This document shows positions 17,398-59,722 of a stretch of 64,000 nt of DNA, one piece after another. Below the pieces are notes generated by a model. It saw nothing but the letters and a program-made list of their open reading frames with translations. It searched no databases and was not told where the DNA came from. Each line of letters begins with the position of its first letter. The stretch's first letter is position 1. The DNA is from Deferribacter autotrophicus (GTDB taxonomy: Bacteria; Chrysiogenota; Deferribacteres; Deferribacterales; Deferribacteraceae). The DNA lies in contig NZ_VFJB01000006.1 of NCBI RefSeq assembly GCF_008362905.1, positions 1-64,000 of the forward strand, in the 5' to 3' direction. The translations under genes and the position numbers were made by a program.

Positions 17398-18343
17398 TAA
17401 CAAATTAGTCAGTATTTTAATTCCCGTATATAATAGAGAGAAATATATAGAAGAAACTGTAAAAGGCGCATTAAAACAGACATATAAAAATATTGAAGTG
17501 ATAGTTGTAGATAATAAAAGTAATGATAAAACTTGGAATAAACTCCAAGAGTTAGCTAAGACAGATAATAGGATAAGAATATTTCAGAATGAAACTAATA
17601 TAGGTCCTGTTAGAAATTGGAAAAGATGTATAGATGAAGCAAGTGGAAAATATGGGAAAATTCTTTGGTCAGATGATTTGATTGCACCTGATTTTATAAA
17701 AAAAACTTTACCATTTTTGGAAAACAATGAAGACGTGGGTTTTGTTTTTACAGGAACAGAAATTTTTATAGATGGCACTCAAAAAAAGAGCGAAAATTAT
17801 TTTATAGGAAAAACAGGTATTTATGATAGTGATAAATATATAAATGGTGTACTTTTTGAAGATAACTATCCTGTGTCTCCTGGATGTGCGTTATTTAGAA
17901 TGAAAGACTTAAAAGAGAATTTACTTATTAATGTTCCAAACAAAGTAAATAGTAATTTTAGTATGCATGCAATTGGTAATGATTTATTAATATTTTTATT
18001 AACCGCACATAAGTATAAGAGATTTGCATTTATAAATGAAAAGTTATCATTTTTCAGAGCCCATAAAGATTCTATTAGTATTAAATCTAATAATGGGAAA
18101 TTACCATTGCATTATAGTTTAGCAAAAGCATATTTTGTCGAAAATTATAGAAAAGATTTAATTAGGAAATTGAATACTAGTATTTGGATAAATATTAAGC
18201 GATATCCAACTACTGCAAAAAAATACAATCTTGACAAAATAGAAAAGTTTTACTTAAGCAACAGAGATTATAAACTAGATTATGTTTATTTGGTTAATAA
18301 AGTGTTTAAGAAAATATTAAAGAAGATGGGATTAATGAGATGA
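17387..18343 (+). CDS. Family 2 glycosyltransferase
   Basis: A 318-residue GT-A enzyme: VSILIPVYNREKYIEETVKGALKQTY with the second aspartates at VVDNKSNDKTW and the metal-binding ILWSDDLIAPDF. The acceptor domain is not informative, so donor and linkage are unknown. It probably adds one sugar of the O-unit. It overlaps wzx and the next gene (ATGAGATGA junction). Confidence 0.85.
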   Translation: MLNNNKLVSILIPVYNREKYIEETVKGALKQTYKNIEVIVVDNKSNDKTWNKLQELAKTDNRIRIFQNETNIGPVRNWKRCIDEASGKYGKILWSDDLIAPDFIKKTLPFLENNEDVGFVFTGTEIFIDGTQKKSENYFIGKTGIYDSDKYINGVLFEDNYPVSPGCALFRMKDLKENLLINVPNKVNSNFSMHAIGNDLLIFLLTAHKYKRFAFINEKLSFFRAHKDSISIKSNNGKLPLHYSLAKAYFVENYRKDLIRKLNTSIWINIKRYPTTAKKYNLDKIEKFYLSNRDYKLDYVYLVNKVFKKILKKMGLMR

Positions 18344-19461
18344 AAATGGAATGTTTAAATAAAAACTATTCAACAACAAAACTGTGCTATAAACTTTTAG
18401 ATGGCAGTTTTTTAGACATGGACGGCAAAATAAAAGCAGAATTAAAATTTAAAATAAACAATCCAAAATTCAAAATCCAAAATTCAAAATTAATCGGAAA
18501 GCCTGAAGATAAATTTGAAACAATGCTCTTTTTACCAGAGGGTGAAGAGAGAAAAGGGGAGGGTGGGCTTAGAACTAAAGGATATTTTAAGCATAGCTAT
18601 AAGAAGGTAGTAAGTGATAAGAGACAAGAGATAGGAGATAAAAGTGACGAATGGTGGATAGTGGATAGAGATGATAATTTAGTCAAAAAAGTAGAAATGC
18701 CAGAAAATTTAAATCTACCATCTACCACCTATCACCTCCCACTTATCTCTATAATAACTGTCGTCTACAACGGCGAAAAATATCTTGAAGAAACCATTAA
18801 AAGTGTAATTAATCAAACTTATCATAATGTAGAGTATATAATAATTGATGGTGGTTCAACTGATGGAACTTTGGGTATAATTAAAAAATATGAAAATTAT
18901 ATTGATTATTGGGTGAGTGAACCAGATGAAGGAATTTATGATGCAATGAATAAAGGAATTTTGACCGCTAGAGGTAAATGGATAGCTTTTTTAAATTCAG
19001 ATGACAAGTTTATAAATTGTTATTTATTGAACAATTTATTTATTTATTTGTTTTCAGATGTTGATATTTTGTATGGGAATATTTTGAAAAATGGTAAGAT
19101 AAAAAAAGCCTACCATAATTTTTTATATTTTTATATGAGTATAAAGCACCCGGCAACTTTTATTAATGCAAAATTGGCAAGAAAAATAAAGTTTGATAAG
19201 AGCTATAAAATAGCTGGAGATTATAAATTATTTTTGGAATGTAAAATTAAGAAATGTAAATTTAAAAAAGTTAATTGCGTGTTTACTATTATGAGGGAGG
19301 GTGGAGTAAGTAGTAATAGTTTAGATTCTATTAAGGAGGTTTGGAATGTTCAGTCAAAAATGTTAAAAAAATATAGGATTGTTTTTTTTATAAATAAGAT
19401 TCTTTTTATTTTCAGAAAAGTTAAATTTGTTTTTAAAGGAGGAAAAAGTGCTAACATATGA
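18340..19461 (+). CDS. Family 2 glycosyltransferase with repeat-derived N-terminal region
   Basis: The glycosyltransferase domain starts only at about residue 136: ISIITVVYNGEKYLEETIKSVI, then IIDGGSTDGTL and FLNSDDKF. The preceding 135 residues are unlike the family and part of them is encoded by short repeat arrays (18446-18500 and 18600-18755). KMECLNKNYSTTKLCYKLLD at the start suggests another small module. It overlaps neighbours at both ends. Donor and acceptor are unknown. Confidence 0.78.
   Translation: MKMECLNKNYSTTKLCYKLLDGSFLDMDGKIKAELKFKINNPKFKIQNSKLIGKPEDKFETMLFLPEGEERKGEGGLRTKGYFKHSYKKVVSDKRQEIGDKSDEWWIVDRDDNLVKKVEMPENLNLPSTTYHLPLISIITVVYNGEKYLEETIKSVINQTYHNVEYIIIDGGSTDGTLGIIKKYENYIDYWVSEPDEGIYDAMNKGILTARGKWIAFLNSDDKFINCYLLNNLFIYLFSDVDILYGNILKNGKIKKAYHNFLYFYMSIKHPATFINAKLARKIKFDKSYKIAGDYKLFLECKIKKCKFKKVNCVFTIMREGGVSSNSLDSIKEVWNVQSKMLKKYRIVFFINKILFIFRKVKFVFKGGKSANI
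18446..18500 (+). repeat. 7-bp repeats inside the glycosyltransferase gene
   Basis: CCAAAATTCAAAATCCAAAA-type words of 7 bp encode NNPKFKIQNSKL in frame. They match in kind the repeats inside gmd. Confidence 0.65.
18600..18755 (+). repeat. Inverted short-repeat arms inside the glycosyltransferase gene
   Basis: A G/A-rich arm (GTGATAAGAGACAAGAGATA, then GGTGGATAGTGGATAG) and a C/T-rich arm (CTACCATCTACCACCTATCA) flank about 50 bp. The arms are complementary in kind and everything stays open in the coding frame. Confidence 0.65.
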
Positions 19462-26275: not shown

Positions 26276-27490
26276 ATGGATTTTTCATTTTTTTTCGCAG
26301 AACAGCAAAAATTGTTACAGAAAATAAATTTATCTTTTAAACGTAGTTTATATAGCAAGATAAATCTAAAAAATAGATTTATCGCTTTATTAGGTCAACG
26401 AGGGGTTGGGAAAACCACTATAATGTTGCAGATTTTGAAGGAGAAATTTGCATATAATGATAGTGTGCTTTATATAAGTGTGGATAATCCTTATTTTGCA
26501 AGTGCTTCATTGTATGATTTTGCTAAAGAGTTTGAAAAATATGGTGGAAAGTTTTTATTTATAGATGAGATTCATAAGTATAAAGACTTTGGTTCTCATT
26601 TAAAGGCAATTTATGATTCTACTGATTTAAATGTCATAATTTCGGGATCTTCTCTACTTCAGATTTATAAAAATAATGCAGATTTAAGCAGACGAATTGT
26701 AACTATAAAAGTGCCAAATATGTCTTTTAGAGAATATCTTGAGCTGAAAGGGTATAATTTTCCATCTTATTCTTTAGAAGAAATTGTTTCAAAGCATGTC
26801 GAAATTGCAAATGATATAATTTCTAAAATAAAACCATTAAAGCTTTTTAAAGAATATCTTGAATATGGCGCGTATCCTTTTATAGTTGAGGGAGTGGATA
26901 CTTATAAAGCAAAATTGATAAATATAATAAATCACATTCTCGAAGTTGACCTTCCTTACGTAACCAACATAGCATATTATAATATTGATAAATTAAAAAA
27001 GTTACTTTATATACTTGCCACATCGGTACCCTTTACACCCAATATTAGTGAGCTTTCACAAAACACAGGTATCTCAAGACCAAGCGTATTGGAGTATATT
27101 TATCTTTTGGAGAAAGCAGAGCTTTTGATAAATATGCATTATCATTCGAGAGGATATTCAAAATTGCAGAAGCCAGATAAAATTTATTTGAATAACTCTA
27201 ACCTTATGCGAGCTATAACCTACAGAACAAACACAGGAAATGAAAGAGAAACTTTTTTTGTGAATCAGGTTATTTCATATTTTTTTAATAAAGTCTCTTT
27301 ATTAAGAGAAGATTTTGCTTTATCCAAAAGTGGTGATTTTTTGATTAATGGAAAAACTTTTGAGATAGGAGGGAAAAGAAAGGGTTATAAACAGATAAAA
27401 GAGATACCGAACTCATATATAGTAGCTGATAATATAGAAATTGGATTTAAGAACAAGATACCGTTGTGGTTGTTTGGGTTTTTGTATTGA
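26276..27490 (+). CDS. AAA-type ATPase (AAA_14-like) with nuclease-like C-terminus
   Basis: 404 residues. Walker A GQRGVGKT at 40-47 and Walker B FLFIDEIHKY at about 93-102, sensor-like VIISGSS, then a helical region with a winged-helix-like SELSQNTGISRPSVLEYIYLLEKAELL and a C-terminal GDFLINGKTFEIGGKRK segment resembling the D...E-X-K core of restriction-like nucleases. It ends IPLWLFGFLY, shared with the gene at 29253 and nearly with 35422. Members of this group are common in archaea and have no settled role. Confidence 0.8.
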   Translation: MDFSFFFAEQQKLLQKINLSFKRSLYSKINLKNRFIALLGQRGVGKTTIMLQILKEKFAYNDSVLYISVDNPYFASASLYDFAKEFEKYGGKFLFIDEIHKYKDFGSHLKAIYDSTDLNVIISGSSLLQIYKNNADLSRRIVTIKVPNMSFREYLELKGYNFPSYSLEEIVSKHVEIANDIISKIKPLKLFKEYLEYGAYPFIVEGVDTYKAKLINIINHILEVDLPYVTNIAYYNIDKLKKLLYILATSVPFTPNISELSQNTGISRPSVLEYIYLLEKAELLINMHYHSRGYSKLQKPDKIYLNNSNLMRAITYRTNTGNERETFFVNQVISYFFNKVSLLREDFALSKSGDFLINGKTFEIGGKRKGYKQIKEIPNSYIVADNIEIGFKNKIPLWLFGFLY

Positions 27491-29252: not shown

Positions 29253-30458
29253 ATGAGCAGTTTGCTTGAGATAGCTGTTAATCTTTCTGCGAATAAGATA
29301 ACTCAGCAGATTCCAGATTATAAGCGATTTTTGTTTTATGACATAAAGAAAAGTGACTCTAAAATCATTGGTATTTATGGTGCAAGAGGGGTGGGTAAAA
29401 CGACACTTATGTTACAGCTTCTAAAAGACTTGAACCTACCTTTGCGTGAGACTATTTATATTTCCTGTGATCATCCTGTATTTTCAGGTGTTTCTTTGTT
29501 TGATTTTCTTGAGGAGTTTAGTAAAAAAGGGGGGAAAATTGCATTTGTTGATGAAGTTCACAAAGCACCAGAATTTCAAGCACATCTTAAATCCACTTAT
29601 GATTTTTTAGATATTAAGGTTATATTTTCTGGTTCTTCTGCTGTACAGATGACAAATCCTGATTTTACTCGCAGGTTTTCTATGTACAGACTTCCTGCAC
29701 TTTCATTAAGGGAATTTATTGAGTTAGAACTAAATATTTCATTGAAAAATTATCTTTTAGAAGAGATAATAAAAAATCACCAGGATGTAGCATTAGAAAT
29801 TATAAGAGAATTGAATAAAGAAAAAATCCTAAAACTTTTTGGTGATTATCTGGAATATGGGGTATACCCTTTTTATTTAGAAGATAAAAAGAAATTTAAA
29901 GATAGGTTGTCTGATTCTATAAATGCCACTTTGTACACTGATTTAGCTGAGATATATAATATTCACCCTGAAAAAATAGTAACATTAAAAAAATTGTTAA
30001 CAACTATTGCTGTTTCAGAACCTTTAGAATTATCTGTTGAAAATATCGCAAGTGTGACAGGTATTTCAAAAGCTACACTATATAAATATATAGATTATCT
30101 TTCCAGGGCTGAACTTATAATGTACATACAAAATGAAGCCAAACGGTTTAAGTCGATTAGAAAGCCGGATAAACTATATTTAGCAAATACCAATTTGTTA
30201 AATGCCTTATGTTTAAATGCTAAAAAAGGGACGATGAGAGAAACGTTTTTTGCTTCAATGCTGCGATACAGGCATTCGCTATATTATTCAAATAAAGTGG
30301 ATTTCTTGATAAATGAAAAATATCTCTTTGAAGTGGGTGGGAAAAATAAAGATTTTTCGCAAGTTAAAAATAATAAAAATAGCTACCTCGCAATTGATGA
30401 TATTGAGATGGGGTTTGAGCGAAAAATACCTTTGTGGCTTTTTGGGTTTTTGTATTGA
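29253..30458 (+). CDS. AAA-type ATPase with nuclease-like C-terminus, relative of the 26276 gene
   Basis: 401 residues. Walker A GARGVGKT at 43-50, Walker B KIAFVDEVHKAPEF, VIFSGSSAVQM, MYRLPALSLREFIELEL, winged-helix-like ITGISKATLYKYIDYLSRAEL-type segment and a C-terminal VDFLINEKYLFEVGGKNKDF followed by IPLWLFGFLY. It is clearly homologous along its length to the gene at 26276. No partner gene is attached. Function unknown. Confidence 0.8.
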   Translation: MSSLLEIAVNLSANKITQQIPDYKRFLFYDIKKSDSKIIGIYGARGVGKTTLMLQLLKDLNLPLRETIYISCDHPVFSGVSLFDFLEEFSKKGGKIAFVDEVHKAPEFQAHLKSTYDFLDIKVIFSGSSAVQMTNPDFTRRFSMYRLPALSLREFIELELNISLKNYLLEEIIKNHQDVALEIIRELNKEKILKLFGDYLEYGVYPFYLEDKKKFKDRLSDSINATLYTDLAEIYNIHPEKIVTLKKLLTTIAVSEPLELSVENIASVTGISKATLYKYIDYLSRAELIMYIQNEAKRFKSIRKPDKLYLANTNLLNALCLNAKKGTMRETFFASMLRYRHSLYYSNKVDFLINEKYLFEVGGKNKDFSQVKNNKNSYLAIDDIEMGFERKIPLWLFGFLY

Positions 30459-30690
30459 AACGGGAAACGTGAGTCGTAAATCGGGAATCGTAAATCGGGA
30501 ATCGTGAATCGTGAATCGTAAATCGGGAATCGTAAATCGGGAATCGTAAATCGGGAATCGTGAGTCGTGAATCGTGAGTCGTGAATCGGGAATCGTGAAT
30601 CGTGAAGCGGGAATCGTGTGGAAGGTAGGAAAATCGTTTTACGATTTACGTTTTACGATTTACGTCTTACGAGTTTTATAGTGTTGAAAC
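30455..30690 (+). repeat. Largest paired 7-bp array (GAATCGT / ACGATTT)
   Basis: About 20 forward 7-bp units (AAATCGG, GAATCGT, GAGTCGT, GAAGCGG) run from the stop codon to 30615, then the spacer GTGGAAGGTAGGAAAATCG, then reverse TTTTACGATTTACG units to 30680 and GTTGAAACGTT. It is the longest example and would form a large hairpin. Confidence 0.88.
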
Positions 30691-35421: not shown

Positions 35422-36582
35422 ATGATAAACGAAATTATTGATCAGATTGAGTTGACTTTAGAACGTCTGAAAACTTATCTTCCAGATAGAAAACGTCCAT
35501 ATTTTGACAATATTCCTATTGATGGTATTAGAGGTGCACTTGTTTATGGGTTAAGGGGAGTTGGAAAAACTACTTTTTTGATTGATAAAATTTCTAATTG
35601 TAAACTAAATTTTTTGTATTTAAGTGCTGATAATCCCTCAATCTCATCATTGCCACTTTACGATATTGTGAGTGCAATTTTTAAAAGGGGGTATGATGGA
35701 GTAGTAATTGATGAGGTGCATCATGGTAATAAATGGAGCGAGCATGTAAAGGCACTTTATGACGATTATCCAGGTAATACTATATGGATAAGTGATAGCA
35801 GTAATCTGATACTGAAAAGGGCTGTGGCGGATTTATCCAGACGGTTTGTACAGTTTCGAATACCTTTGATGTCTTTTAGGGAATACCTTTTTCTTACTCA
35901 AAATATTCTGATTGAGACAATTGATCCATTTAATATTGATAAAAATATTTTTTCAATGTTAAGAAATATAAATATCTTAAAACTATTTGCTGATTACATC
36001 AATACAGGTATAAGACCTATTTTTATCGAGGGGGAGTATTGCTTAAGATTGAAAGGGCTTTTAGAAAAATCTATTTATTATGATATACCATTTTATGTTT
36101 CTTCTATACAGGATAATCATTTAAGGGTGATGAATGCAATTTTAGGACATTTGATAACTGCACCTATTCCAACAATAAATATTTCTGGGATGTGCAGTGA
36201 ATGGAATTTGGGAAAAGAAAAGCTTTATAACTTGCTTTATGTTATGGAGCAATCAGAATTGATAAATATCATCAGAAAACCTAGTAAATCTGTATACACA
36301 AAAGGTTCTAAAATTTTTCTTTCAGATCCTTCTGTTTATAGCTGTTTTAAAGGTAACGTAGGGAATGCAAGAGAGGCGTTTGTAGTAATGTGTTTAAAAG
36401 AAAAATATAATGTTTTTGCAAGCAAAGACGAAAAAGACTGTGACTTTATTGTAGATGATATCAAAGTAGAGGTTGGTGGAAAAAATAAAAAAATGAAAAA
36501 TGCGGACTTTGTAATAAGTGATGAAATTGATGTGCCGGTTAGAAATAAAATTCCGCTATGGATGTTAGGATTTTTGTATTGA
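35422..36582 (+). CDS. AAA-type ATPase with nuclease-like C-terminus
   Basis: 386 residues. Walker A GLRGVGKT at 43-50, Walker B GVVIDEVHHGNKWSEHVKAL, SDSSNLI, FRIPLMSFREYLFL, then a C-terminal CDFIVDDIKVEVGGKNKKMK and IPLWMLGFLY. It shares the DF-I-V/N...E-V-GGK-K and the terminal decapeptide pattern with the genes at 26276 and 29253. Function unknown. Repeats start at the stop codon. Confidence 0.8.
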   Translation: MINEIIDQIELTLERLKTYLPDRKRPYFDNIPIDGIRGALVYGLRGVGKTTFLIDKISNCKLNFLYLSADNPSISSLPLYDIVSAIFKRGYDGVVIDEVHHGNKWSEHVKALYDDYPGNTIWISDSSNLILKRAVADLSRRFVQFRIPLMSFREYLFLTQNILIETIDPFNIDKNIFSMLRNINILKLFADYINTGIRPIFIEGEYCLRLKGLLEKSIYYDIPFYVSSIQDNHLRVMNAILGHLITAPIPTINISGMCSEWNLGKEKLYNLLYVMEQSELINIIRKPSKSVYTKGSKIFLSDPSVYSCFKGNVGNAREAFVVMCLKEKYNVFASKDEKDCDFIVDDIKVEVGGKNKKMKNADFVISDEIDVPVRNKIPLWMLGFLY

Positions 36583-41227: not shown

Positions 41228-41560
41228 TTGAAGAAGGCACATTTAGAAAATAGGCTTGAAACAAGGCTGAAACATTATGCAAAGTACAAACTTCTTATAA
41301 TTGATGAAATAGGCTATCTGCCAATAAATAGAGAAGAAGGGAAAATACTTTTTCAGCTTATTAACAAAAGATATGAGAAAGGCAATACTATAATAACTAC
41401 CAATAAGGAATTTTCAAAATGGCATAAGATATTCGGAGATGTTACCATTGCCAATGCTATTTTAGACATGTTACTGCATCATTCTGTTGTAGAAAAGATA
41501 GTGGGTAGATCTTACGGGTCAAAAGATATTTTGAGGAAAATAAAGATAAAATTAGTTAAC
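41228..41560 (+). pseudogene. istB: IstB fragment (IS21-family helper), N-terminus missing
   Basis: The readable part LENRLETRLKHYAKYKLLIIDEIGYLPINREE carries Walker B and continues through TIITTNKEFSKWHKIFGD and ILDMLLHHSVVEKIVGRSY, the C-terminal half of IstB. The Walker A part and istA are absent. The open frame runs on to 41731 but the tail is not IstB-like. It is unrelated in detail to the IstB at 51, so it stems from another IS21 element. Confidence 0.8.
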
Positions 41561-41605
41561 ACTTTTGTTAACTTTTATATTGGCAATTTTGTTAATTTTT
41601 ATGTT

Positions 41606-41931
41606 GACATTAACCCCCATTTTTTTTTCAGAAACTGTTTTAAATTAAATTATGTTGATTTTTTTTATGGGAAAACATTCTTCTTATTCTCTTTGGGACG
41701 TCCAGTTTTGTTTCGAGGCAAGTTCCTCTAAAACCGCCATCCATGGCAGTTTTATGGGAACTTTCAGGGTGTTGCACATGGTGTTGGGATACATCCTGTG
41801 AGTTATTTTAATAGTTATTATTTGTTATTTTAAGAGATGATGTTTATTTTTTTGTGCTACACCCTGAACCCGAAAAATGTTTCCCCACAAACTCATTAAA
41901 AAAAGTTTTGTAAAAAATAGGGTGATTCCGG
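41606..41931. mobile_element. MITE-like element, copy 1
   Basis: About 150 bp (41725-41880) closely match copy 2 at 54787-54940: CCTCTAAAACCGCC, an ATGG loop, then TTTCAGGGTGTTGCAC and a distant GTGCTACACCCTGAA as inverted pair, then CCCGAAAAATG. The right end AAAAAATAGGGTGATTCC matches TGGGGTGAC ends of the other copies; the left end (about 41606-41620, ACCCCCATTTTTT) is less certain. No open frame. Confidence 0.65.
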
Positions 41932-42247: not shown

Positions 42248-44234
42248 GTGACAAATAAAAATGGGTTATTTTTTCTTTTTTTATTTCTTGTTGTTGCAAT
42301 TTTCTTTTATTCAGCGTTTGTGAGATATAATCAGTACAGTGAATGGAAAAAGAAGAAAAATTTATATTTTGTAGAAAAGTATCCTGCTATGACCACCCTA
42401 GATGCATATTACTGGCTGAGATATGCAAAAGAGTATGATAAAGGCATATATAAAAGTGATAATGATACTCTGCGCTATTATCCGGACAGTCAAAAAAGGC
42501 GGAAGCCAATTCCTTTACTTAGTTTTTTGGTTGCAAAATTTTCTTCATTTACAGGTGGCAATTACTATTATGCTGGTCTTTATTTGATTCCAATCCTGGC
42601 ATCCCTTTTTATCATACCTTTGTCTATTTACTTTTATTTAGTAGGTTTTCCTTTTGGTGGGCTTGTAGGTAGCTTTGTAGGTGCTTTCAGTTATATGTAT
42701 TTTGTAAGAAGCTCTATGGGGCGTGTTGATACAGACCTTTTAAATATATTTTTTCCTGCACTTGCGTCGTTATTTATTTATTTATTTGGCAGGAAAAACA
42801 GAAAATGATAAGAAGACTTATATTTTCGCCGCTTTATCTGGATTTACAATGCTTCTTTTCTACTGGTGGTATTATCATCCAGGTTTTACATTAATATACT
42901 TTGTTGTATTGATTGCTTTACTTTTTGTTTATAAAAAACAAAGAAAAGTAATAATCTACAGTGCAATTATTTATTTTATTTTCAGTAACCCTATATATTT
43001 CTTTTATGGAATTTTCAATTTATTTGGTTTTATTAAAAATTATTTTACAATATCAAAAGAAAATGTGATTGGATTTCCAAATATATTGCAGACGATTACG
43101 GAAGCTCAGCATAAACCTGTGATGGAAGTTTTAAGATATGTTATGACTTCTCCTTTATTAACAGCTTTAGGTTTAATTATATTTATAGTGATTGGAGTGT
43201 TAAACTGGAGAAGGTTTTTATCGATTGTTCCGCTGTTTTTGTTGGGATTACTTTCTTTTAAAAGTTCAAACAGATTTGCAATGTTTCTTGCACCTTTTGC
43301 AGGTGCTGGCTTAGGTGTTTTAATAGATTATGTTTATAAAGTGGGTTCTGAGAAGCTTCAAGACAAAAAAGTATATGTTGGAGTTGGGGCATTATCACTG
43401 TTTGTCTTGATGATTGTGTTTGTAAAAAATTTAACTGCCATTGATTATGTTCCAAGGCCATCGATAAATCCAAATATTATTAAATCGTTTATAAATATGA
43501 ACAAGAAACTTCCTCAAGGGGCAATTTGGTCCTGGTGGGATTATGGATATGCTATAGAGGATATTGTGGGTTTTCCTGTGTACCATGATGGAGGTTCGCA
43601 AGGATCTCCAAAAACTTATTTTATTGCAAAAAGTTTTATTACAGACAATCAAAGCAAACTTTATAAATATGTATCTTATTTTGATAATTATGGAATGGAT
43701 GAAATAAAAAAGTTGATTGAAGATAACATTTCAGCTCTAGAGATAGTAAAGAATGTAGATGCTTTTGATGGAAAACCTGTCAATGAGAATAATTATTTAC
43801 TTTTTACTCAAGATATGATTTCCAAATTTGCGGCATTTAATTTTATTGGATCTTACGATTTTAAAAAGAAACAATCTGAAAAAGTCATCTTAGCTCTTAT
43901 GACATGTCAAAAAGTTGAGAAAAATGTATTTTTTTGTGATGGTAATAAAATTGATACAAATAAGGGAATAATCAACAAAAAAGTACCGCTAAAACAATTT
44001 ATTGTTACAGTAAACGGGAAAATCGCACAAAGAAAAAGCTATTCTTTTAAAAAAGGCTTAAATGCTGAACTTATTGTTAAAGATGGGATTATTTATTATA
44101 TGATAATTGGTGATGATAAATATTATAACTCAAACTTTAATCAGATTTATATTTTAGGTAATTACGACAAAAGGCTATTTGAAGAGGTTTATAATAATTT
44201 TCCGTTTGCTAGAGTTTTTCGAGTACGGAAATAG
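42248..44234 (+). CDS. STT3/PglB-type oligosaccharyltransferase, out of frame at a tetranucleotide tract
   Basis: Transfers a lipid-linked oligosaccharide to protein. Part 1 (42248-42808) has MTTLDAYYWLRYAKEY with a candidate catalytic aspartate and RVDTDLLN; part 2 (to 44234) continues GKTENDKKTYIFAALSGF, membrane segments and the catalytic WWDYG motif in SWWDYGYAIED. The frames change within four TTAT units at 42770-42787. Loss of one 4-bp unit would join them into about 660 residues, normal for the family. I read it as a phase-variable gene now off, though decay or error is possible. Its stop merges with a GTTCAAG array. Confidence 0.85.
42770..42787 (+). repeat. TTAT tetranucleotide tract at the frameshift
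   Basis: TTATTTATTTATTTATTT is four TTAT units plus TT, inside a coding region exactly where the two halves of the oligosaccharyltransferase lose frame. Three units would put both halves in one frame. Confidence 0.85.
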
Positions 44235-44316
44235 TTCAAAGTTCAAGGTTCAATGTTCAAAGTTCAATGTTCAAGGTTCAAAGTTCAATGTTCAAAGTTC
44301 AAGGTTCAAAGTTGAG
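44234..44316 (+). repeat. 7-bp array (GTTCAAG/GTTCAAA/GTTCAAT), left arm
   Basis: About eleven 7-bp units begin at the stop codon of the preceding gene. A short second piece lies at 44413-44442, directly before the IVP gene. The complementary arm is at 44862-44932. Confidence 0.85.
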
Positions 44317-44415: not shown

Positions 44416-44448
44416 TGTTCAACGTTCAAGGTTCAAGGTTAGTAAAAT

Positions 44449-44814
44449 ATGAAGATTGAAAGGTTCGAAGATATTAAAGCGTGGAAAGAGGCAAGAGAAC
44501 TTGCGAAAATAGTTTATGAGAATTTTAAAGATATTAAAGACTATGGTTTTAAAGATCAAATACAGCGAGCTGCTGTTTCAATAATGTCTAATATTGCTGA
44601 GGGGTTTGATAGACATTCGAATAAAGATTTTATTCACTTTTTAGTGATAGCCAGAGGTTCTGTTTCAGAGGTTAAAAGTTTGTTGTATGTTGCATTAGAT
44701 AATGAATATATTGACTCTAAGATGTTTGAAAAATTGTACAATCATTGTAATAAAATAGCAAATTTAATTAATGGGTTTATTAGATACTTAAGAAACTCAT
44801 CAAGATCATGCTAA
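44449..44814 (+). CDS. Four-helix-bundle protein (IVP/S23 family)
   Basis: Intact, 121 residues: FEDIKAWKEARELAKIVYENF, YGFKDQIQRAAVSIMSNIAEGFDRH, DFIHFLVIARGSVSEVKSLL. It lies between GTTCAAG units on the left and TTGAACG units on the right, with a terminator between its stop and the right arm. Function unknown. Confidence 0.88.
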   Translation: MKIERFEDIKAWKEARELAKIVYENFKDIKDYGFKDQIQRAAVSIMSNIAEGFDRHSNKDFIHFLVIARGSVSEVKSLLYVALDNEYIDSKMFEKLYNHCNKIANLINGFIRYLRNSSRSC

Positions 44815-44861: not shown

Positions 44862-44932
44862 CTCAAACATTGAACCTTTAACCGAACATTGAACGTTGAA
44901 CGTTGAACATTGAACATTGAACATTAAACCCC
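44862..44932 (+). repeat. 7-bp array (TTGAACG/TTGAACA), right arm
   Basis: Units TTGAACC, TTGAACG and TTGAACA are the reverse complement of the GTTCAAG units at 44234-44442. The arms frame the IVP gene. The array ends next to the stop codon of the minus-strand glutamate synthase gene. Confidence 0.85.
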
Positions 44933-50064: not shown

Positions 50065-50140
50065 GCCTTATTTTTTAATGTTAAAGATTTTGAAGACCTA
50101 ATTTAAATGAATTGATATGTGATAAATGTTGATTATTGAG

Positions 50141-50245
50141 GTTCAAGGTTCAACGTTCAAGGTTCAACGTTCAAGGTTCAACGTTCAAGGTTCAACGTTC
50201 AAGGTTCAACGTTCAAGGTTCAATGTTCAACGTTCAAGGTTTAAA
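50141..50245 (+). repeat. 7-bp array (GTTCAAG/GTTCAAC alternating)
   Basis: About fourteen units, alternating GTTCAAG and GTTCAAC almost perfectly, in the gap between the divergent glutamate synthase operon and tatA. No IVP gene is attached here. From 50280 to 50355 there are TACCCATA/TACAACTT-like words. Confidence 0.85.
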
Positions 50246-53799: not shown

Positions 53800-53862
53800 A
53801 AACGTTAGAACGTGTGAACGTTGTAACGTTAGAACGTGTGAACGTTAGAACGTTAGAAATGG
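53800..53862 (+). repeat. 8-bp array (GTTAGAAC/GTGTGAAC)
   Basis: About seven units GTTAGAAC, GTGTGAAC, GTTGTAAC lie just after the larA-like stop codon. The rest up to 54000 is AT-rich and likely holds the vapBC promoter. Confidence 0.8.
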
Positions 53863-59544: not shown

Positions 59545-59722
59545 AGTTCAAAGTTCAACCCGTGTAATAGAGCTATCGACTAACTCAAGTGAGTCTAATA
59601 ATATCAAGGACGTCGAAAGCTATATTATGTTCATATACTTTTATTACACGGGTTCAAAGTTCAAAGTTCAAGGTTCAAGGTTCAAAGTTCAATGTTCAAA
59701 GTTCAAAGTTCAAGGTTTAGAA
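59545..59722 (+). repeat. 7-bp GTTCAAA/GTTCAAG array split by a structured insertion
   Basis: GTTCAAA units start at 59546, are interrupted at 59557-59654, and continue as GTTCAAAGTTCAAGGTTCAA to about 59716. Later parts of the gap (59725-59900) contain AAGGTTGAGGTTAAGG, ACGGTTTACGCTTTACGA and GTTAGAACGTT words. Confidence 0.8.
59557..59654. mobile_element. 98-bp structured insertion with 13-bp terminal inverted repeats
   Basis: AACCCGTGTAATA at the left end is repeated inverted as TATTACACGGGTT at the right. Inside, GCTATCGAC and GTCGAAAGC form a near-perfect second pair and ACTCAAGTGAGT a small hairpin. It splits a GTTCAAA array, which resumes directly after it. No second copy was noticed in this window. 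Confidence 0.65.

Follow-up and report, generated by a model that had tools for sequence, protein, structure and literature searches.

A split oligosaccharyltransferase gene in Deferribacter autotrophicus: frames that meet in a TTAT tract and a probable recent slippage mutation

Results

The oligosaccharyltransferase gene and its surroundings

The window analysed here comprises 64,000 nucleotides of contig 6 of the Deferribacter autotrophicus genome (2.535 Mb in 10 contigs). It carries on its forward strand a gene for an STT3/PglB oligosaccharyltransferase (OST), which is divided into two overlapping reading frames (Table 1). Frame 1 matches the Pfam family STT3 (PF02516) with 25.0 bits at a cut-off of 24.5, while frame 2 matches STT3-PglB_core (PF21436) with 23 bits at a cut-off of 23. 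As judged from the sequence and from alignments, the catalytic motifs are all there and are shared out between the two frames: the 5′ part bears the acidic motif TTLDAYYW and the DXD motif GRVDTD, and the 3′ part the TITE motif of external loop 5 (EL5) and WWDYG. The Pfam matches of both frames, together with WWDYG in frame 2, agree with the identity originally proposed for the gene. Besides the tract described below, no further stop or frameshift was found in the ~2 kb of the gene, and the two halves are thus otherwise fully open, as had also been claimed. A single STT3 match was obtained in the D. autotrophicus genome, making this the sole STT3 gene detected. Scans for promoters and terminators remained at chance level.

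Table 1. Coordinates of the oligosaccharyltransferase gene, its parts and neighbouring elements in the window.
Feature	Position	Strand	Description
STT3/PglB oligosaccharyltransferase gene	42248-44234	+	Two overlapping frames
5′ part (frame 1), STT3/PglB gene	42248-42808	+	GTG start, 186 aa, ends with TGA at 42806-42808
3′ part (frame 2), STT3/PglB gene	42744-44234	+	496 open codons; 490 aa from TTG at 42762
(TTAT)4.5 tract, frame-change site	42770-42787	+	Sequence, TRF, gap-free ortholog alignment, composition expectation
ATGA overlap	42805-42808		
GT2 open frame	18340-19461		Adjacent polysaccharide cluster
Heptamer-type array in GT2	18440-18491		Translated NNPKFKIQNSK
TTTA-type run in GT2	19034-19049		16 nt, ATTT x4, currently in frame
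Three related ATPase genes	26276-27490, 29253-30458, 35422-36582		Between GT4 gene and OST
IS21-type IstB ATPase remnant	41228-41731		C-terminal part of Pfam model only
23S-rRNA-intervening-sequence-protein gene and its flanking arrays	44233-44313, 44417-44440, 44449-44814, 44866-44929		GTTCAA-type heptamers on both flanks
Examples of similar 7-/8-nt arrays	30456-30618, 50139-50241, 53801-53858, 59652-59717		

The place of the gene is common to D. autotrophicus and D. desulfuricans: in both it follows a polysaccharide cluster, a GT4 gene and several AAA-ATPases. Three related ATPase genes of this stretch show very uneven conservation, with 67%, 92% and 76% identity, respectively, to their own syntenic counterparts in D. 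desulfuricans. An IstB remnant is located 5′ of the OST gene, and a gene for a 23S-rRNA-intervening-sequence protein (four-helix bundle) lies just 3′ of the OST stop, between heptamer arrays of a type that recurs in the window. A further heptamer-type array, AATCCAAAATTCAA, is found within the GT2 open frame, which looks as though a repeat array of intergenic origin had spread into the N-terminal coding region.

The two frames meet within the TTAT tract

Frames 1 and 2 are jointly open over just ~64 nt, and inside this overlap lies the tract TTATTTATTTATTTATTT, an 18-nt repeat of 4.5 TTAT units with a 100% match in TRF. The frame change therefore falls within the tract, exactly where the original prediction had put it. 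When one TTAT unit is removed, the frames fuse into 660 codons with no stop, and alignments of this one-unit-shorter reading with 21 orthologs from the order are gap-free across the junction. The junction peptide then reads SLFIYLAGK, to be compared with SLFIFFAAK in D. desulfuricans and with SLFVYLAST, SLFIYLASI and SLFILLASK in other orthologs. The read-through protein is also aligned across the junction to the PglB of C. lari (3rce; phmmer E 1.3e-11). The tract encodes LFIYL in either frame; the net change is +4 nt, and the exact extra unit is not placeable. The gain of two more units also restores the frame, at the price of four residues that are surplus with respect to every ortholog. Hence, the frame arithmetic put forward for the tract (loss of one unit or gain of two) is borne out, as expected of a coding repeat whose unit of 4 is not a multiple of three, and the ungapped alignment obtained after removing one unit indicates that a one-unit slippage accounts for the frame break.

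The gene as it stands does not provide a single open frame for an OST, and all the orthologs examined are open at the site of the break. We also considered translational coupling at the ATGA overlap, which was rejected, since its ATG opens the third frame and not frame 2.

The gene in related genomes

An STT3/PglB gene was found in 45 of 60 genomes of the surrounding taxa; several of the hits are fragments at contig edges, or homologs that are shorter and more divergent. Among the hits in these 60 genomes, only one short remnant (G010) was reported to have an interior stop. Other phyla (Desulfurellaceae, Thermodesulfobacteriota and others) contributed 14 further loci, all open at the site, three of which run into a contig edge. 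None of the 35 relatives' sequences (21 from the order and 14 distant) shows a period-4 run at the junction, and no period-4 run longer than 11 nt occurs anywhere in the gene of D. desulfuricans or at the 14 distant loci. A tract of variable length, such as an SSR locus might display among relatives, was not seen. The original prediction had named relatives as one place where the proposed switch could be challenged; across species, the challenge holds, in that relatives are intact and lack the repeat at the site, so that a contingency tract is not conserved among them.

The ortholog of D. desulfuricans is 73% identical over 175 aa of the 5′ part and 66% identical in the 3′ part. Relative-rate counts with nine outgroups reveal no consistent excess of changes on the D. 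autotrophicus branch (for instance, 46 against 42, 42 against 39, 39 against 40, and 27 against 41); one of the nine (L004) was nominally positive, with 48 against 30 (chi2 4.15). In 83 columns, at least 90% of the relatives agree; D. autotrophicus departs at two of these, at one of them together with D. desulfuricans. With no rate excess against most outgroups and one lineage-specific departure, the gene has therefore been constrained until recently, and on these sequence comparisons the lesion appears to be recent.

Repeats and composition of the genome

The codons TTA TTT ATT TAT TT(G), which specify the conserved LFIYL, constitute by themselves 14 nt of TTAT repeat. According to Markov models of orders 1, 3 and 5 fitted to a 446-kb sample of the genome, ~4-8 TTTA-type words of 14 nt are expected in the 2.535 Mb, as against ~0.05-0.12 words of 18 nt. 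On these expectations, the present 18-nt tract is beyond composition and its 14-nt precursor is not; therefore, the starting tract was unremarkable, and a slip has left its mark in the present one. Genome-wide pattern searches returned six TTTA-type tracts of at least 13 nt, two of them being 17 nt or longer, namely the OST tract and an intergenic one.

In the 446-kb sample there are three period-4 runs of at least 16 nt, all of the TTTA type. The only other coding run of this length in the sample is the one in the GT2 gene. That the second coding run also lies in a glycosylation gene is suggestive, with n=2. Homopolymers of at least 9 nt are fewer than expected in the same sample (20 observed against 108 under the Markov-1 model), and the STT3/PglB gene contains no homopolymer longer than 7 nt. 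MutS1 and MutL are both encoded by uninterrupted genes. Thus, the 446-kb sample exhibits no wealth of coding repeats, with its three long period-4 runs, and the genome no signs of weakened mismatch repair, with both mutS1 and mutL in place.

Discussion

The observations are probably explained by a recent one-unit slippage gain, which inactivated the OST in the sequenced culture and which is revertible at a low rate, and not by an evolved high-frequency switch. The 14-nt TTAT stretch would be a by-product of the AT-rich codons used for the conserved (S)LFIYL in a genome of 32% GC, and strand slippage on this stretch would have added one TTAT unit in recent times. With the extra unit, translation would end after 186 of the 660 residues. 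TTLDA and DTD are retained in the resulting fragment, which is devoid of the TITE loop and of WWDYG and hence should be inactive; judging from the motifs of PglB, each fragment is presumably inactive alone. Since the 186-aa product lacks TITE and WWDYG, there would presumably be no N-linked transfer by the OST in the sequenced culture. The enzyme would be regained if one unit were lost, and such reversion is expected at the low rate of short tetranucleotide tracts such as the CTGG hotspot of lacI.

The length of the tract is in keeping with a low rate. TAAA tracts, the complement of the TTAT type, have been classed as "mutable" at 3-9 units, with 10^-7 to 10^-5 events per division, and as "hypermutable" above 9 units, the "mutable" tracts coming from genome composition and not from selection for mutability (PMC4235727). 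Phasome surveys count tetranucleotide tracts only from 5 units upwards (PMC6321876, PMC5953494). At 4.5 units, the OST tract falls short of both the hypermutable length (>9 TAAA units) and the phasome cut-off (at least 5).

A less probable reading, which overlaps with the foregoing in that inactivation is common to both, holds that N-glycosylation has been lost in the lineage and that the gene is an irreversible, decaying pseudogene of which the frameshift is the first lesion. The frame is indeed broken, no STT3 other than the broken gene was detected in the genome, and its surroundings are rich in repeats and remnants of insertion sequences. On the other hand, neither a second stop or frameshift in the ~2 kb nor a clear acceleration of the rate is seen; therefore, any decay has barely begun.

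The original prediction had described the gene as probably phase-variable. It would then be a contingency locus in which the tract turns the sole OST on (3 units) or off (4 or 5 units) at a useful frequency, giving heterogeneous protein glycosylation in the population. This is not supported by our analysis and we regard it as improbable, considering that 4-5 units belong to the low-rate class, that mismatch repair is present and that no phasome is marked by similar coding tracts. Several observations would fit such a switch: the exact unit-length arithmetic of the frames, a gene that is conserved but for this one lesion, a tract whose 18 nt are beyond composition, the 16-nt TTTA run in a glycosyltransferase gene (GT2) of the adjoining polysaccharide cluster, and the fact that phase-variable glycosyltransferases are familiar elsewhere, e.g., Neisseria pglA, pglE and pglI (PMC5953494). 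However, no relative examined, D. desulfuricans included, has the tract; its 4-5 units are under the phasome cut-offs; MutS and MutL are both encoded; the 446-kb sample holds no family of long coding repeats; and the short tract is accounted for by the codons of the conserved peptide. This assessment rests on one assembly of one strain. If the switch were real, the whole N-glycoproteome of a free-living vent bacterium would be turned on and off, and among the titles and abstracts searched we found no report of phase variation of a PglB oligosaccharyltransferase. A demonstrated PglB switch would be of interest; the present evidence favours an ordinary slippage mutation, and the OST tract does little to support phase variation of a new kind.

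A sequencing or assembly error within the repeat is very unlikely. Although the source is one draft assembly, the SL50 genome was obtained with Illumina MiSeq 2x250 reads at 199x coverage (PMC6896113), which argues against such an error, and a tetranucleotide repeat of 18 nt, which is not a homopolymer, fits many times over into a 250-nt MiSeq read. Also very unlikely is a rescue of the enzyme, whether by programmed +1 ribosomal frameshifting, by transcriptional slippage or by the cooperation of two half-proteins: both frames are open over the tract and encode an identical peptide there, but the orthologs are all single-frame and hence offer no conserved recoding site, the longest homopolymer in the gene does not exceed 7 nt, and inspection reveals no Shine-Dalgarno-like sequence ahead of the frame-2 TTG.

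If the OST was inactivated by a recent slip, PglB-type N-glycosylation is probably missing from the D. autotrophicus type strain in its sequenced form, a point to bear in mind in any work on its surface proteins or pili. Three-unit and four-unit clones would then represent a natural isogenic pair with which to address the role of N-glycosylation in a vent thermophile.

Comparison with known systems

The closest counterpart of the gene is the PglB of D. desulfuricans (G001:C1:381652-383700), a 66-73% identical ortholog in the same locus position, which PMC6025236 (citing Mills et al. 2016) lists among bacterial OTases characterised from organisms of deep-sea vents. Unlike the D. autotrophicus gene, it is intact, with an open frame of 683 codons, and has no TTAT tract, the site reading TTATTTATCTTTTTT. 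The PglB of C. lari (PDB 3rce, 5ogl, 6gxc) is likewise a bacterial OST of the STT3 family with DTD and WWDYG; it differs in being distant in sequence (E about 1e-11) and intact.

Neisseria pglA, pglE and pglI resemble the OST gene in carrying frame-switching repeats in protein-glycosylation genes (PMC5953494). Their tracts, however, are long (G9-21, or 5-34 heptamers) and vary among isolates. Moreover, the pilin glycosyltransferases of Neisseria modify the glycan, whereas the D. autotrophicus gene specifies the transferase to protein.

In lacI, few inactivating mutations are more frequent than one-unit gains and losses in the (CTGG)3 sequence (PMC3485313). Like the OST tract, this is a short coding tetranucleotide repeat in which a one-unit change breaks the frame (PMC3485313), and its hotspot is a spontaneous one, not a contingency locus. 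It differs in that it belongs to a repressor gene followed with laboratory reporters, and in its repeat unit and GC content. By analogy, the lacI (CTGG)3 hotspot is the closest mechanistic precedent for the event that we propose in the OST gene of D. autotrophicus.
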